Source of the DNA: [Limnothrix rosea] IAM M-220
GTDB taxonomy: Bacteria > Cyanobacteriota > Cyanobacteriia > Cyanobacteriales > MRBY01
Length of the DNA stretch: 32,162 nucleotides
Direction of reading: 5' to 3'
Assembly (NCBI RefSeq): GCF_001904615.1
Contig: NZ_MRBY01000005.1
Location: forward strand, 93,250 to 125,411
Shown here: in pieces, positions 2,757 through 27,534 of the stretch
Numbering within the stretch: the first letter of the stretch is position 1
Layout of the letters: each line of letters opens with the position of its first letter
Notes under the pieces: model-generated
Seen by the model: the letters and a program-made list of their open reading frames with translations, nothing else
What the model was told of the DNA's origin: nothing
Databases searched by the model: none
Made by a program: the position numbers and the translations under genes

Positions 2757-3308
2757 GTGGCAACAACAGATAACTTTCAAGAAACCCCAACCCAGAGTAC
2801 CGAGCAGCTCCAGCAAGAACTGCAACTGCGAGATCAGTTGGTGCAACAACTCTCCCAAGAGCTTTTTCGTTTAGTAAAGGGCAACGACGAATTTACACCC
2901 CAGCCTGAATTTTCGGAGCGCCACCAGGCAGAATTACGCCTCCTGCGTGAACAGCTCCAAGAAGTAGAACAGCAGGTTTCCTTTTACCAAGAGCAGCTCA
3001 CCCAAAAGGATCAAGAGATCTACCAACTGCGTCAATCTGTCCAAGAGTTGAGCGATCGTAGCCGGATGTTAGAGCAAGTGGTTCAAGAATTGCCACAGAT
3101 TTACCGCCAGAAATTTGCTGAAAGAATGGCTACCGTTCGCGATAGAGTAGAGAAGCTGCAAAACGAGAATCGTCAGCTCCATGCAGAGTTACAAAGCGTC
3201 AGTTATCGCTTAGCAGTGAAAAATCGTCGTCATAGCCTGTCTGAGATTGAACTACCCACATTTAACCCCAAAGGCGGCAGCCACATTCCAACCTTCGGAA
3301 CTGTCTAA
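2757..3308 (+). CDS. Coiled-coil protein of unknown function
   Basis: A 183-residue soluble, acidic protein dominated by Gln/Glu/Leu heptads from about residue 15 to 165, which predicts a long coiled coil. No signal peptide or membrane segment is present. The C-terminal third (ELPQIYRQKFAERM, then NENRQLHAELQSVSYRLA) is the least repetitive part; from memory it resembles a conserved hypothetical protein found across cyanobacteria. The start is GTG, supported by GAGGAG at 2739-2744, twelve bases upstream. Its last 62 bases overlap the next ORF in a different frame, suggesting translational coupling. A structural or scaffolding role would fit a coiled coil, but nothing in the sequence gives a specific function. 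Confidence 0.8.
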   Translation: MATTDNFQETPTQSTEQLQQELQLRDQLVQQLSQELFRLVKGNDEFTPQPEFSERHQAELRLLREQLQEVEQQVSFYQEQLTQKDQEIYQLRQSVQELSDRSRMLEQVVQELPQIYRQKFAERMATVRDRVEKLQNENRQLHAELQSVSYRLAVKNRRHSLSEIELPTFNPKGGSHIPTFGTV

Positions 3309-4005
3309 GGTTGTTATTCTCGTCAATGCTGACCTAAAACATTCCGGTAAATTAATCTCCGCCTCCCCTGTAACGGAGCGAATGATTAGGGCTTTTGAAA
3401 AAGCGATTCTCGCGGATTTTCCTGAGATAGAAATAAATATTGTGACACCTGCCATGGTGCGCTACCACAATTTTCCTCAGGAGGACGGCATCTTAGTTTG
3501 TCCGCTGACGATTGATTTACCGGAACGTTTACCCTTTGATCAGCATCAATTGTTTCAAGCTTGTCGGGATATTGACGCTCGTCGTGCATGGGTTCTCGAA
3601 AATACAACCCACAAGACGGGTGGCCATAGCTTCCTAGGCGATCATTGGCTGCCGATTATTTATAATCCTCAAGGGTCTTTATGTGGTGCCGTGATTGGTG
3701 AAGGGGTTATGCCAAATTCCTATCATCAGCCGACAAATTTGGGAAAAGAAGAGCAAAAAGCATTATCTCAGTTGGGATTCCAGCTATTGGAATCCATTGC
3801 GGCATCACCCGGTGTGTATTTGATGCAATTCGGGTATTCGTCTAATAAAGAAATTCTTTTTGATCGTTTGTGGCCATTCCCTGCAGCGCCGGCGATCGCC
3901 AGCTTAGTACCGCAACAGACTGATTTATTTGCTTGCCATTGGCGTTGTTTAATTCACCAGCCAGTGACAGATATCGTCAATGCTAGTGGGCTCGTTTCAT
4001 CGTAA
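3247..4005 (+). CDS. Conserved-looking protein of unknown function
   Basis: A frame of 252 residues whose composition and length leave little doubt it is coding, though I do not recognise the family. Distinctive segments are VVILVNADLKHSGK near 22-35, WVLENTTHKTGGHSFLGDHW near the middle, and DRLWPFPAAPAIASLVPQ near the end. No transmembrane segment or signal peptide is evident. The start is uncertain. The only standard start that keeps the N-terminal strand is TTG at 3247, inside the coiled-coil gene and without a Shine-Dalgarno. The next in-frame ATG (3381) would remove the VVILVNAD segment. An ATT at 3316, six bases after AAGG, is a non-standard alternative. The overlap suggests the two proteins are co-translated and may act together; this is inference. 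Confidence 0.75.
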   Translation: MNYPHLTPKAAATFQPSELSKVVILVNADLKHSGKLISASPVTERMIRAFEKAILADFPEIEINIVTPAMVRYHNFPQEDGILVCPLTIDLPERLPFDQHQLFQACRDIDARRAWVLENTTHKTGGHSFLGDHWLPIIYNPQGSLCGAVIGEGVMPNSYHQPTNLGKEEQKALSQLGFQLLESIAASPGVYLMQFGYSSNKEILFDRLWPFPAAPAIASLVPQQTDLFACHWRCLIHQPVTDIVNASGLVSS

Positions 4006-4160: not shown

Positions 4161-5297
4161 ATGACCTCATCAAAAAAAATAGGTATTCTCACAAGTGGTG
4201 GGGATTGTTCTGGTTTGAATGCAGCAATTCGAGCTGTGACTCACTGTGCTGAAAGTGTTTACGGTTGGGAAGTGATCGGTATTTGCCGGGCCACACGCGG
4301 TTTGTTAAATCAGCCGCCAGATGTCATGAAGCTCACGACATCGCAAGTGGATAATTGGCTGACCATGGGGGGAACGATGCTCGGCACGACGAATAAGGGT
4401 AATCCTTTTTCTTTTCCCATGGAAGATGGTACGAGATGTGATCGTTCCCAAGAAATTATTGATAATTACCATAGTCTTGGTTTAGATGCCCTCATTGGTA
4501 TTGGTGGTGATGGCAGTTTGGCAATTCTCCACAAGCTGGCAAAGCAGGGCAATATTAATTTTGTTGGGATTCCCAAAACTATTGACAATGACGTTAGCGT
4601 TACAGAAAAGTCTATTGGCTTTGAGTCAGCGGTCAATATTGCGACGGAAGCTCTTGATCGTCTACATTTCACGGCTGCTAGTCATGAGCGGGTGATGATT
4701 GTGGAGGTGATGGGTCGGGATGCTGGGCATATTGCGATTAATGCGGGTATTGCTGGTGGTGCTCATGTCGTGCTTATTCCAGAGATTGATTATGATCTTA
4801 AAATGGTTTGTGATTTTATCTGCGATCGCCAAAATTCCGGTAATAATTACACACTCGTAGTTGTTTCTGAAGCGGTTTGTACGGAAAGTGGGCAAACATT
4901 ACAAAAAGAATTGCAATTTGGGGAATGTCGTCTTGGCGGTATTGGTCAATATTTAGCCGATAAAGTGGCGGCAAAAACAGGTTCTGAAACACGTGTTACT
5001 GTATTAGGCCATATTCAGCGGGGCGGTACAGCTTCACCTTTGGATCGGTTGCTCGCTTCGGCTTTTGGTGTGGCGGCGGTGAACTTAATTGCGGAAGAAA
5101 AGTTTGATCGGATGGTGACTTGGGAGCAGGGTCAGGTTTCTAGTGTGCCTATTTCTGAGGCGATTAAGACCTATCGTACGGTTAATCCAGAGGGGACATT
5201 GGTCAAAACAGCGCGCGGCCTTGGGATTTGTCTCGGCGATCGCCCATTGTCAGGGAAGGTTAATCGGTTGGAACGTCAGCTCCAAGGAATGGCCTAA
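4161..5297 (+). CDS. pfkA: 6-phosphofructokinase
   Basis: A 378-residue cytosolic phosphofructokinase that phosphorylates fructose 6-phosphate to fructose 1,6-bisphosphate in glycolysis. Visible motifs are the nucleotide loop GGDCSG (13-18), GGDGS (115-119), the catalytic PKTIDND (138-144, with the base Asp), MGRDAGHIA (184-192) and GHIQRGG (283-289). At the two positions that separate ATP from pyrophosphate enzymes (104 and 124 in E. coli numbering) it has Gly and Lys. Gly at 104 predicts ATP use, while Lys at 124 is shared with PPi enzymes and with the plant/trypanosome-type ATP-PFK group. It is longer than the 320-residue E. coli enzyme. ATG start. Its last 38 bases overlap the convergent COP23-domain gene. 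Confidence 0.95.
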   Translation: MTSSKKIGILTSGGDCSGLNAAIRAVTHCAESVYGWEVIGICRATRGLLNQPPDVMKLTTSQVDNWLTMGGTMLGTTNKGNPFSFPMEDGTRCDRSQEIIDNYHSLGLDALIGIGGDGSLAILHKLAKQGNINFVGIPKTIDNDVSVTEKSIGFESAVNIATEALDRLHFTAASHERVMIVEVMGRDAGHIAINAGIAGGAHVVLIPEIDYDLKMVCDFICDRQNSGNNYTLVVVSEAVCTESGQTLQKELQFGECRLGGIGQYLADKVAAKTGSETRVTVLGHIQRGGTASPLDRLLASAFGVAAVNLIAEEKFDRMVTWEQGQVSSVPISEAIKTYRTVNPEGTLVKTARGLGICLGDRPLSGKVNRLERQLQGMA

Positions 5298-5862
5298 GGT
5301 CTATTTGCTTTAAACCTTGGGGTGATTGTTCCTCTGCGATAGGAGCGGCGATCGCCCCATGATCTTCAAGCGAGGGAGCGGCACTGAATGGCTGTAGGTC
5401 AATCGTAAACTGCTCAAAAAACCTTTGCGGCTCAATATTTGGCTTCAAAATCAATAAATTAGAACAGTTGTCAGATGTTTGTTTAGCCGTTTGAACGCAA
5501 ACAGCATAGCGATTGGGCGTTGCCGGATTTTGGCGGTAGCGCAACGTTGCCAATCCCGCAGAAAAATGGGCATCTAGGATATTTGCCACAGTTTGACAGC
5601 GTCGGTCTGGGGTCGTGTCGCCCTCTACGCCTGTGACAAGACGCAACCATGGCTGACTGTTATTTTGCTGAAATAAAACTGTCCACAATACTTCCCCACT
5701 CTTCGGTTCAAGTTTTTTCTCACAAATAAATTGGCGGGGTTTGAGAACATTTCGACCCATTTTTTGGCTGCTTCCCCAAATTAAAATGGTCGTAGTAAGG
5801 GCGATCGCCGCTACACCAAACAAGAGTAATCGATAGGGTTCTAAGGTAGCGGGTTTAGTCAT
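5260..5862 (-). CDS. COP23-domain protein with N-terminal membrane anchor
   Basis: A 200-residue protein (from the ATG at 5862) with one hydrophobic helix at about 11-29 and then a domain at about 45-160 that resembles the COP23 (circadian oscillating polypeptide) family. Supporting features are FIC near the start, a repeated pattern of conserved Cys (DRRCQTVA, YAVCVQ, SDNCSNLLILKP), and the LLILKP strand before the last helix. The helix may be a signal-anchor, placing the domain on the periplasmic or lumenal side. A TTG 24 bases further upstream would add eight residues, but the ATG is preferred. COP23 was described as a protein whose abundance oscillates daily; its biochemical role is unknown to me. 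The stop codon falls inside the convergent pfkA coding region. Confidence 0.75.
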   Translation of the reverse strand: MTKPATLEPYRLLLFGVAAIALTTTILIWGSSQKMGRNVLKPRQFICEKKLEPKSGEVLWTVLFQQNNSQPWLRLVTGVEGDTTPDRRCQTVANILDAHFSAGLATLRYRQNPATPNRYAVCVQTAKQTSDNCSNLLILKPNIEPQRFFEQFTIDLQPFSAAPSLEDHGAIAAPIAEEQSPQGLKQIDLRPFLGADVPTD

Positions 5863-5962
5863 GTGAAAAAAATGAGAGTGTAGCAAAAAACAGTTTAGTT
5901 CAAGATAAAAAAACTGGTGGCGATCGCCCTAAACTCCATAGAGCTCAAAATTATTGAAAACT

Positions 5963-22830: not shown

Positions 22831-23901
22831 ATGAGTAAAGTTGCTGTCGGTTTATCAGGGGGCGTAGATAGCTCCGTTACAGCAGGCATTCTCCACCGTC
22901 AAGGATATGAAGTGGAGGGCGTAACACTATGGCTGATGAAAGGGAAAGGTCAATGTTGCTCCGAGGGGATGGTCGATGCTGCCGATATTTGCGAACAGCT
23001 CGGCATTACCCACCACGTTGTAGACAGTCGCGATCTGTTCCAGAAATATATTGTTGATTATTTAGTGACAGGCTACGAATCCGGGGTAACACCGCTGCCT
23101 TGCTCCCAATGTAATCGCATGGTGAAATTCGGGCCGATGTTGCAATGGGCAAAGGAAGAGCTGGGCATCGAGAAAATTGCCACAGGCCATTACGCGAAGA
23201 TTCGCCATAACGAAGAAACTGGGCGCTATGAACTTTTGCGGGCAGTGGATCGCAATAAAGATCAGTCTTATTTCCTCTACGATCTCACCCAAGAGATGTT
23301 GGCGGGGACGCTTTTTCCCCTCGGTGAATACACAAAAGATTACACCCGCGAAATTGCTGAAGAAATGAAATTATCGACAGCAAAAAAACCGGAAAGCCAA
23401 GATTTATGCCTAATTGAAGCCCATGGCTCCATGAAAACTTTTCTGGATAAATATATCGATCAAAAAGAAGGCGATATTGTTGATCTCGATGGCAAAATCC
23501 TAGGGAAGCACACAGGTATTCACCACTACACCATTGGTCAGCGGAAGGGTTTGGGGATTGCTGCGCCGGAACCGCTCTATGTGGTGAAGCTGGATAGTGT
23601 CATGAATCGGGTGATTGTCAGTACCCGTGATCGCGCTGGGAAGGATGAATGTAGCGTCAATCGTATGAATTGGGTTTCTATTGCGCCGATTAACGCACCC
23701 ATTCGGGCAGAGGTGCAGGTTCGTTATCGTAGTAAGGCGGTTCCTGTGAATGTTATTCCTTTGGAAGAAGGTTGTCTCAAACTCGTTTTTGATGAGCCGC
23801 AATTTGGCATTACCCCCGGACAAGCGGCAGTTCTATATGATGGCGAAAAGGTTCTGGGTGGTGGCATTATCGAAAATGAGCCTACCAATGTTGATGCTTA
23901 A
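22831..23901 (+). CDS. mnmA: tRNA-specific 2-thiouridylase MnmA
   Basis: A 356-residue enzyme that thiolates U34 of tRNA-Lys, -Glu and -Gln, using ATP and a persulfide relay. The PP-loop SGGVDSS is at 9-15. The catalytic cysteine pair is Cys94 (PCSQCN) and Cys193 (SQDLCLI), matching Cys102 and Cys199 of the E. coli enzyme. GHYAKI (119-124), KDQSYFLY and the C-terminal beta-barrel region (from about 250, [12 protein letters not shown]) are all present. ATG start 91 bases after the TPR gene. The last four bases overlap the end of the convergent invertase gene. Confidence 0.96.
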
Positions 23902-25337
23902 CTGAATAAATCTAGTTCGGTATAGGCTGCCATTTGTTTCGGGTTGAGGTCGCAGGTTAGGGCGATCGCCTCTGGCTTGAAAGCGATCAAATCGAGATTA
24001 TTGGGATCGTCAAGGAGATAATTGGCCGAGAGGTAGCCGGCGATCGTCCATGTTTGGCATTGTCTGGCTTCGCGGCCGATGAGTCTGCCCTGTTTACCGT
24101 CATAATATTCCGGCCAGTTGTCATCGGCTAAAGTTTGTCCGGCGATCGCCACTGCTTTTTTTGCCAGCTCTGGTTTGCCCATTTTTTGGGCGGCGGCAGC
24201 GAGGAGCCACAGCAACATCGGCCAACTGCCAGCATTATGGTAAGACCAAGGCAAATTTTTGCGATCCCAACCCGTCGTAGTCTGCCAATCGCGCCCTTCG
24301 ATGGCTGGATAACACACTTTCATCGGCATCATTGCCACCAAATCATCCCAGCGCTGTTCAATCACCGAAAGAATATCTTTGGACTGTTGCTCATCGGCGA
24401 GGCTGGTAATAATTGCTAATAAATTACCTTGGGAAAAGAAGCGAAAATCCATGCGAGCGGGACCTAAATTGCCGACAAAATATCCCCCTTCTGAGGGCAG
24501 CCATTCCGTTAACCAATTGGGAATTGATTCGGGATAAATATTGAGCCAGTTATCAACACTGGAGCCAAATTCTTCCACATGAAAACGGTAAATTTTTTGC
24601 AACCGATCTAAATTCAACCAATAATAAGTCCGCAAATGGTACATCAATTGGCTCGTTCTTTCAGTTGCTGCTTCAATAAAATCTTTACTCGTTTTATCGG
24701 TTGGGATCAGTAATTCTCTTGATGCTCTTAATGCGGCATAAAACAAAACCTGAATCTCTAGGGGGTAGCCATAGACACCCATGCGGCGATCGATCATAAA
24801 TGCGCCATCAGGGACTAAAAGGGTGGGAAATAAATCAAATCTTGTCCGTAAACACAGCTCTAGAATCTGTTGAATTCCCTGCTGAAATGCTGGACTATGG
24901 GCAAGCTCGGTATCGCCTGTTTTTTTGACATAGGCTCGTAATAAAAGCAGCCACCATAAACAGGAATCCACTGGCGTGACGCGGGCGATCGCCTGTTCCC
25001 CAAAATCCGGAATAATGCGTTCTTTTTCGCCACAGGTTTCGATCTTAAAACTGGCAGGCATTAAGCCCGTGCCGGGTTTAAAACAATCCAGCTGCCGCTC
25101 GTGGTTTTGGAGCGCTAGGGTGAGCTTTAAAAAGTTGCGGACAATCTCTGTTTTGCCCTCCATTAAAAAGGCAAAGGCCGAAACCGCAAAATCTCTGGTA
25201 AAACACTGGTCATAGTTTAGGTTTGGTGCATTTGTATCTTTGGCGGCGATCGTGCCCACTGGATGACTTTTGTAATGGATGATCACCGACTCATGGGCTT
25301 GTCGGGCGAGTTCCATGAGGGACTGGACTTTGGGCAT
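23898..25337 (-). CDS. Alkaline/neutral invertase (GH100)
   Basis: A 479-residue cytosolic invertase that hydrolyses sucrose to glucose and fructose. It has the GH100 pattern from end to end: [18 protein letters not shown] (41-58), [20 protein letters not shown] (173-192) with the expected catalytic Asp183, and [11 protein letters not shown] (405-415) with the expected catalytic Glu410. These correspond within a few positions to Asp188 and Glu414 of the Anabaena InvA structure, as I recall it. No signal peptide. In cyanobacteria sucrose is a compatible solute or transport sugar, and invertase controls its turnover. ATG start. It is convergent with mnmA, overlapping by four bases, and lies downstream of the 2Fe-2S gene on the same strand. 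Confidence 0.93.
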
Positions 25338-25450: not shown

Positions 25451-25834
25451 TTAAAAACCAAAGTTTAAGGATGTGTGACTGGCAAGGAGCCAAAAAATCA
25501 GAATCATGCTTGCCCAAAATCCAAGAAAAATACTGATCCAAACGGTCACATAATTTTTTTGCTCATGATATTTCCAGTAGAGTAATTTTTTGACGGGTTT
25601 GCCCTGCTGGAGATGTTGTTCGGCGATCGCCTGCACATTTTTTACTTGGACATTGTTATACCAAGCCTTATCGGGCATCACCTTGACCATGGGGCCGCTA
25701 CCACATTCACCAAGACAGCCACTACGGACAACTGTTATTTGATCATCTTCATATTTTTGAAATTCCCGTAAAATCTTCAAGGCTCCTTGTTTCGGACAAG
25801 TTTGGTGGCAACAAACAAATACTGTTTTTGACAT
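25451..25834 (-). CDS. Thioredoxin-like 2Fe-2S protein with C-terminal membrane anchor
   Basis: A 127-residue protein from the ATG at 25834 (a GTG nine bases upstream is possible). Residues 1-82 form a thioredoxin-like 2Fe-2S ferredoxin domain, the fold shared with the C-terminal half of NuoE: FVCCHQTC (Cys8/9/13), then RSGCLGECGSGP (Cys40, Cys44), and the closing AIAEQHLQQGKPV helix. Residues about 95-118 are a strong membrane helix after a basic patch, so the cluster domain should face the cytoplasm. The electron partner is unknown. It lies about 120 bases after ndhB on the same strand, but a terminator separates them. Many cyanobacterial relatives are soluble; the membrane anchor is the unusual part. 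Confidence 0.85.
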   Translation of the reverse strand: MSKTVFVCCHQTCPKQGALKILREFQKYEDDQITVVRSGCLGECGSGPMVKVMPDKAWYNNVQVKNVQAIAEQHLQQGKPVKKLLYWKYHEQKNYVTVWISIFLGFWASMILIFWLLASHTSLNFGF

Positions 25835-25866
25835 AGCGGACACAAGTTTTACAAGGTGTGCTTAAT

Positions 25867-25895
25867 AAAAAACTCCCTTCGATTATGAAGAGAGT
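25867..25895 (-). terminator. Strong terminator after ndhB
   Basis: On the minus strand ACTCTCTTC pairs with GAAGGGAGT over nine positions with one T-G wobble (25887-25895 with 25872-25880), around a six-base loop, followed by five T. It is about 60 bases past the ndhB stop and would separate ndhB from the 2Fe-2S gene. The plus strand is also followed by CATTTTT, so it may work both ways. Confidence 0.8.
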
Positions 25896-25953
25896 CATTT
25901 TTAATTGTGTTAAGCCGGTAAAAAAAGTTTAGTTTTTGATGTGATTTTCCTAT

Positions 25954-27534
25954 CTAGCGCTTGGCGATCGCCACTTCATTTAGCAAATCGATAGATTGAT
26001 CTGCCACCACTTCCTGGGGATGAATTGCGGCTTGGAGCATGGGAGTACTGGTGACTGAGCTGTCTGCAATGATAAACAGAGGGTTAGACAAAATACCAGC
26101 AAGGGACGTTACCACGACTGCAAAGATTAAACCCACTTGCAACGGTCTCATGCCAACTGCCGTCCAAGTAACGACTGGATAGTTCCGTACCGAGTCAGAC
26201 ATTTCCTGAGGCTCTTTGACCACCATCATTTTGACGACGCGGATGTAGTAGTAAATGGAAACCACACTGGTGAGCAGACCCAGAAGCACGAGCCAATATA
26301 GACCTGCTTGCCAACCAGCCCAGAAGAGATAAATTTTGCCGAAGAAACCGGCTAACGGCGGAATACCACCAAGGGACAACAGGCAAATACTCAGACCTAA
26401 AGTGAGCAATGGATCCTTTTGATAAAGACCAGCATACTCAGAGATTTGGTCAGTGCCCGTGCGGAGGGAAAAGAGAATAACGCAGGTGAATGCGCCGAGG
26501 TTCATAAAGAGATAAATCAGCAGATAGAAAATCACACTGGAGTAGCCCGCGTCAGTATTGGCGACCAAACCAATCATCACAAAGCCAGCCTGGGCAATGG
26601 AGGAATAGGCCAACATCCGCTTCATACTGGTTTGAGCGAGGGCCACCACATTTCCCAAGACCATACTGAGGATGGCGAGGGCGGTGAAAATTAAGTGCCA
26701 TTCATCGATCACAGAACCAAAGACTGTCACGAGTAAACGGATGGCAAGGGCAAAGCCCGCTGCCTTTGAACCGACGGATAGGAAGGCCACGACGGGGGTG
26801 GGAGAACCTTCGTACACGTCAGGGGTCCATTGGTGGAAGGGAACGGCAGAAATTTTAAAGGCAATACCCGCAATGGAAAAGACGAGGGCGATCGCCAAAG
26901 CTAGGGATTGTGCTCCTTGGGCATCAGTAATATTTGCCGCAATGTCGCTGAGAATTGTTTCACCGCCAGACAAACCATAGAGGAGCGATACACCGTAAAG
27001 GAAAATTGCTGAGCTCGCTGCACCAATGAGGAGATACTTTAAAGCAGCTTCGTTAGAACGGGGATCACGCTTCATGTAGCCCGTCAGTAGATATGACGAA
27101 ATACTGAGCATTTCAAGGGCGACGAAAATCATCACCAGCTCGTTTGCCCCCGACAGGAACATCCCCCCAAGGGTTGCCGTAAGGAGAATACAGATAAATT
27201 CTGAAAGTGCCGTTCCAGACCGTTCGACGTAACGCACCGACATCATAACGGTGAAGGCGGTCGAGAGTGCGATAATGCCCCGAAACAAAATGCTGAGATT
27301 GTCGCTGTTAAATGCGCCGAGAAATGCTACCGGATTAGGATTATCCCAACCGAAATATAGGGCAACCGTCGAACCCAATAGTCCGGCGATCGCCACATAG
27401 GGAATCCAACCAGAACGGGAGCGTCCCACAATCAAATCCCCGACGAGAACGACGACGAGGGTTAAAATTACGATGATTTCCGGCAAAATCGCCCCAGTAT
27501 ACAACTGGCTTGCAACGGTACTTGAAAAATCCAT
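25954..27534 (-). CDS. ndhB: NAD(P)H-quinone oxidoreductase subunit 2
   Basis: A 526-residue antiporter-like membrane subunit of NDH-1, with about 14 predicted helices. NDH-1 takes electrons from ferredoxin to plastoquinone in respiration, cyclic electron flow and CO2 uptake. The proton-channel residues of the family are visible: Glu in [13 protein letters not shown] and Lys in [20 protein letters not shown], with further buried Lys in [17 protein letters not shown] and [16 protein letters not shown]. Length is normal for cyanobacterial NdhB. ATG start; it is divergent from topA across 443 bases. It ends in its own terminator, consistent with ndhB being a single gene apart from other ndh operons. 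Confidence 0.97.

Follow-up and report, generated by a model that had tools for sequence, protein, structure and literature searches.

A predicted tail-anchored thioredoxin-like [2Fe-2S] ferredoxin encoded downstream of ndhB in a cyanobacterial genus

The ferredoxin gene and its surroundings

The window analyzed here, a stretch of 32,162 nucleotides from the genome of [Limnothrix rosea] IAM M-220 (G000), contains beside the gene of an NDH-1 subunit a short reading frame for a small protein, referred to below as the window protein. The features of this region are all located on the reverse strand:

23898..25337, reverse strand: neutral/alkaline invertase of family GH100, the next gene downstream (PF12899, 692.7 bits)
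25451..25834, reverse strand: thioredoxin-like [2Fe-2S] ferredoxin of 127 aa, predicted to be tail-anchored (PF01257, shared ATG position, fold)
25463..25573, reverse strand: C-terminal helix, residues about 88-124, with a hydrophobic segment (Kyte-Doolittle and structure model)
25577..25834, reverse strand: [2Fe-2S] thioredoxin-fold domain, residues about 1-86 (structure model and cysteine conservation)
25871..25896, reverse strand: hairpin with a T tail resembling an intrinsic terminator, 3' of ndhB (sequence fold)
25954..27534, reverse strand: ndhB, NDH-1 subunit 2 (NF002701, 913.7 bits)

The open reading frame (25451-25843, reverse strand) opens with a GTG giving 130 aa and contains an in-frame ATG at 25834 giving 127 aa; the latter was taken as the start because the relatives begin at that position. 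As observed in the earlier note made from the sequence alone, the gene lies just downstream of ndhB (119 bp, same strand) and is separated from it by a terminator, which had been put forward as a caution against an operon. This caution holds over the whole family of the window genome, which comprises six genomes of a single genus: a hairpin followed by a T tail was found after ndhB in all six (folds read by eye). As a bare pattern such a hairpin is not rare, with 3 found in 2.75 kb against 3.0 expected from shuffles. The ferredoxin gene starts 36 nt past the hairpin stem and no promoter-like (sigma-70-like) site was found between the two, so that a partial read-through from ndhB is possible. 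A simple operon with ndhB was rejected, considering the hairpin conserved throughout the genus and the genes intervening between ndhB and the ferredoxin gene in two of its genomes (G001 and G003).

No match to the GH100 invertase was found in the stretches read of the five other genus members. Elsewhere, the window encodes a COP23-like protein of the circadian oscillating protein family (5260-5886, reverse strand) and, at 2757-4005 on the forward strand, two overlapping frames (183 and 252 aa) that match no Pfam family.

A thioredoxin-like ferredoxin domain with a predicted membrane tail

PF01257, the family of thioredoxin-like [2Fe-2S] ferredoxins, is the sole Pfam family in the window protein and passes narrowly (25.6 bits against a cut-off of 24.8, E 1.2e-5). 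In G000 it is matched by two short frames, and a protein search returned a third, weaker relative. The presumed ligands are two pairs of cysteines, C8 and C13 (Cx4C) and C40 and C44 (Cx3C), conserved in 77, 78, 78 and 78 of 78 family sequences respectively, the one exception being a gap; the additional C9 is not conserved. The predicted structure (E3-8, H18-26, E33-38, E50-53, E57-59, H64-75, then a long C-terminal helix) places both pairs in a thioredoxin fold as for one [2Fe-2S] cluster, in a monomer model of moderate confidence (9 sequences, mean pLDDT 74, pTM 0.50). The window protein is a small, presumed iron-sulfur protein and probably an electron carrier.

The domain had been described as of the NuoE C-terminal type, which is right for the fold and less apt for the sequence. 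The C-terminal domain of NuoE (E. coli variant 9q8i) does share the fold (Z 11.2 over 72 residues), but its sequence similarity is lower than that of the free-standing ferredoxins and of HydB, the N-terminal part of NuoE is absent from the window protein, and its match to the full-length NuoE profiles is confined to roughly their final third. NuoE itself, the 24 kDa subunit of complex I, was rejected as an assignment, since the two NuoE profiles missed their cut-offs (NF005722, 23.4 bits against 141; TIGR01958, 21.8 against 142.4) and no match to a NuoF partner was found in G000. Likewise, the best partial NCBIfam matches, all below cut-offs, are clostridial (4.7e-11) and Azotobacter (1.1e-7) ferredoxins, the NuoE families following at 5.3e-5 and weaker. 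Among solved structures, the sequence search gave the N-terminal domain of HydB, from an electron-bifurcating hydrogenase, as the best match (3.5e-13), also first in the Foldseek list, and an Aquifex ferredoxin at 1.2e-11. Residues 1-87 superpose on the free-standing thioredoxin-like [2Fe-2S] ferredoxin Fd4 of Aquifex aeolicus (1f37, 1m2a; Z 12.8 over 84 residues, rmsd 1.9) and on the equally free-standing FeSI, or Shethna protein I, of Azotobacter (5abr; Z 12.3 over 84 residues, rmsd 1.9). The free-standing thioredoxin-like ferredoxins and the HydB N-domains, which head the fold lists too, are the nearest by sequence and fold, and NuoE is more distant. Each of them nonetheless differs from the window protein: the Fd4 and FeSI chains (101-110 residues) have no tail, FeSI is described with C11 and C24 as its first two cysteines, hence Cx12C instead of Cx4C, and the HydB domain is part of a large flavoprotein subunit whereas the window domain stands alone and tethered.

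The other part of the earlier description, a membrane tail on a thioredoxin-like 2Fe-2S protein, is supported. The protein ends with a single hydrophobic segment (mean Kyte-Doolittle 2.28 over 19 residues) and a short tail, which the model places in a helix (88-124) after a poorly defined linker (78-91, pLDDT under 50). These features, read from composition and model, make it a predicted tail-anchored membrane protein. A lysine-rich stretch precedes the segment and K, R, D and E are absent after it, from which an N-in/C-out topology is predicted by the positive-inside rule.

The soluble cyanobacterial relatives outside the genus share the domain, with its Cx4C ... Cx3C spacing, at 36-51% identity. 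Most family members read end soon after the domain, at about 90-110 aa, where the window protein adds a predicted membrane helix. A cyanobacterial clade of thioredoxin-like [2Fe-2S] ferredoxins is named in PMC5343412. Likened by domain and cysteine spacing, the window protein has about an even chance of being a tail-anchored variant of the thioredoxin-like ferredoxins known, though uncharacterised, from cyanobacteria. In the literature searched, no description of a membrane-anchored or tail-anchored [2Fe-2S] ferredoxin in cyanobacteria was found.

Matches to the family were found in 60/60 genomes, the window genome included, at E 1e-3 with distant paralogues counted in. When the class was searched at 1e-26 with a profile built from seven tailed forms, 197 of its 388 genomes gave a match, and the tailed form occurs in at least 9 of these 388, the tails having been inspected only for the returned loci and a few fetched later. 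Among 80 distinct family sequences, 12 carry the tail helix; these come from the genus and from three other families, with G216 in f56, five genomes in f45 (G288, G126, G194, G269 and G237) and G113 in f59. In a first tree (68 sequences), which contained seven gammaproteobacterial rows, the tailed rows were scattered (4 changes). A second tree of 60 rows, from which these seven and L084 were left out, required 3 changes over all rows when unconstrained; a tree holding the tailed forms together was more likely (p-AU 0.68). This comparison, made on a short alignment with many weak forks, does not speak against the tailed form having arisen once. This recurrence of a membrane-tethered form in several cyanobacterial families provides a defined gene for study.

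Gene order around ndhB inside and outside the genus

The tailed gene is carried by five of the six genus genomes, in each of them on the same strand as ndhB. In three it is the direct successor of ndhB, with gaps of 91, 116 and 154 in hit coordinates, and in the two others it is located 1511 and 2081 bp downstream with other genes between. In the sixth genome (G002), topA, ndhB, apt and dppB follow each other in this order and the tailed gene is absent. The block looks inherited, since topA is adjacent to ndhB in 6/6 genomes, the ferredoxin gene being near in 5/6. Identity to the window is about 90-95% for ndhB and goes from 84 down to 45% for the ferredoxin. The ndhB neighbourhood is most simply explained as a gene order inherited within one genus, so that the two genes look like neighbours by descent and not like partners.

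Between ndhB and the ferredoxin gene, G003 has two open reading frames in the same frame across a stop (L042, 6130-7560), the first with a PIN_8 domain, which may be one broken gene.

The association with ndhB, proposed earlier as a check by synteny, thus holds inside the genus and does not hold outside it. The comparison covered 55 genomes with both genes among the matches listed, 49 of them outside the genus and many of them drafts; four further genomes had ndhB and no listed family row. Among the matches listed, a family member lies within 5 kb of ndhB in 6/55, namely the five genus genomes and G018, hence in 1/49 outside the genus. The neighbour in G018 is a soluble paralogue of 78 aa, divergent from ndhB (L093, 9238-9474). 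In G041, an ndhD-like gene is preceded, at a distance of 617 bp, by a soluble relative. These two single cases, noticed after the fact, are given little weight. Around the tailed relatives of seven genomes in other families, no match to ndhB or to an ndhD-like gene was found in the stretches read, which for five loci reach 5.0 to 9.6 kb in either direction, and for the two others 9.1 and 0.25 kb (G216) and 2.0 and 1.2 kb (G126).

Minimal family members of 77-78 aa that retain all four cysteines are found beside ndhB in G018, as described, and elsewhere in the genome in G045 (L092, 9752-9988).

The earlier note had suggested that the protein might serve electron entry to NDH-1. Stated for this genus, the proposal would be an accessory or electron-entry protein passing electrons from its cluster to NdhI or directly to plastoquinone beside NdhB. 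It could draw on the position downstream of ndhB, in the same orientation, in every one of the five genomes with the gene, which survives insertions in two of them, on the possible read-through of the terminator, and on the single cases of G018 and G041. Moreover, the supposed lack of a NuoF-type input module is supported for G000, a draft of 92 contigs with completeness given as 100, where no PF01512 match was found. A subunit of NDH-1 would nevertheless be expected to be kept with ndhB across cyanobacteria, and among the matches listed it is paired with ndhB in 1/49 genomes outside the genus, there as a different, short paralogue; it would also be expected wherever the complex is, and G002 retains ndhB without the tailed gene. 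The lack of an ndhB or ndhD-like match in the stretches read around the seven tailed relatives of other families (short on both sides in G126 and on one in G216), the hairpin after ndhB throughout the genus, and the tighter link of topA than of the ferredoxin gene to ndhB argue in the same direction. In addition, PMC9283085 states that homologues of NuoE, NuoF and NuoG have not been found for the cyanobacterial NDH-1, and that ferredoxin is held to be its donor. We consider this role highly unlikely: the observation was right, the proposal of an NDH-1 function is weak, and the ndhB neighbourhood gives no ground for annotating the window protein as a part of NDH-1.

A part in the Hox hydrogenase was also rejected. 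In a search for NuoF/HoxF-type matches covering seven genomes, with G005 left out, G000 and G004 have the ferredoxin gene and no such match, and G002 shows the reverse.

Charge, genomic contexts and possible role

For the window domain, a pI of 9.0 and a charge of +4.2 were calculated, against pI 4.05-5.23 and charges of -4.8 to -14.7 for the five plant-type ferredoxin frames of the same genome (L148-L152), some of which carry N-terminal extensions. Over the 12 tailed domains, the pI ranges from 6.0 to 9.1, three being acidic (6.0-6.6), and the median for 63 soluble rows is 8.6; basicity is therefore common to the soluble relatives and does not explain the tail. At the ferredoxin interface of NDH-1L, positive clusters are reported on NdhV and NdhO (PMC7021789). 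A basic domain facing such a site would make a poor stand-in for ferredoxin, and the window protein, judged by its charge, looks better suited to meet ferredoxin than to replace it at NDH-1.

Our best reading, to which we give as much credence as doubt, is that a tail-anchored thioredoxin-like ferredoxin relays single electrons at the cytoplasmic side of the membrane to which it is bound. The domain would face the cytoplasm, tied by its helix to the thylakoid or plasma membrane; being basic, it could meet an acidic soluble electron carrier, for example a plant-type ferredoxin, accept one electron and pass it to an acceptor in the membrane or bound to it. Nothing found singles out NDH-1 as this acceptor.

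Against such a relay, the cysK and ygfZ genes beside the soluble relatives point to sulfur or Fe-S metabolism. Among 21 soluble loci, nine have an upstream cysK in the same orientation, no more than about 2.1 kb away, and eight have ygfZ in the opposite orientation at up to 3.6 kb, one or both being present in 13; the 16 loci chosen first (L045-L060) gave 8, 8 and at least one in 12. The window protein could then be the membrane form of a protein for cysteine, sulfur or Fe-S upkeep, the soluble forms serving beside CysK and YgfZ and the tailed ones near membrane Fe-S proteins. Neither gene was matched in the stretches read at the 12 tailed loci, the window included; furthermore, the names cysK and ygfZ were given by eye from sequence, without family search, and the soluble neighbours may likewise be kept by descent. 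This explanation appears doubtful to us, if worth keeping in mind. A peroxiredoxin gene, also named by eye, recurs beside the soluble relatives at L045-L060.

The tailed relatives have no constant neighbour in common. Their contexts are unrelated, with lactate permease and hypD in G288 and, named by eye from translations, NfeD/SPFH-like genes in G237, an rbsK-like gene in G126, and dinB-like and other genes elsewhere. Such diversity could suit a protein that senses oxygen or redox state through its cluster, without carrying electrons in a chain, or one that serves as a structural anchor. However, the Pfam search revealed no output domain in this 127-aa protein, and the same fold serves electron-transfer complexes among the top structural matches, which leaves this function highly improbable.

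Returning to the relay, a more specific form of it is that the tethered basic ferredoxin offers acidic ferredoxin a fixed landing place at the membrane, from which electrons would reach the quinone pool, alongside NDH-1 in the genus and with other acceptors elsewhere. We regard this as a long shot. If true, it would represent a route from ferredoxin to the membrane outside the known complexes. To our knowledge, the routes other than NDH-1 by which ferredoxin electrons reach cyanobacterial membranes are not settled, and we know of no role for many small ferredoxins.

Two of the tailed loci present particular surroundings. In G237 (L128, 6581-8503), the tailed frame overlaps the end of the SPFH/stomatin-like gene, preceded by the NfeD-like gene (both read by eye), an overlap that may vanish with a likelier inner start. 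In G288 (L091, 7281-16839), the tailed gene is located between the lactate permease gene and hypD, followed onward by pfkA, a dihydroorotate-dehydrogenase-like gene and pyruvate:ferredoxin oxidoreductase, in a fermentative setting.
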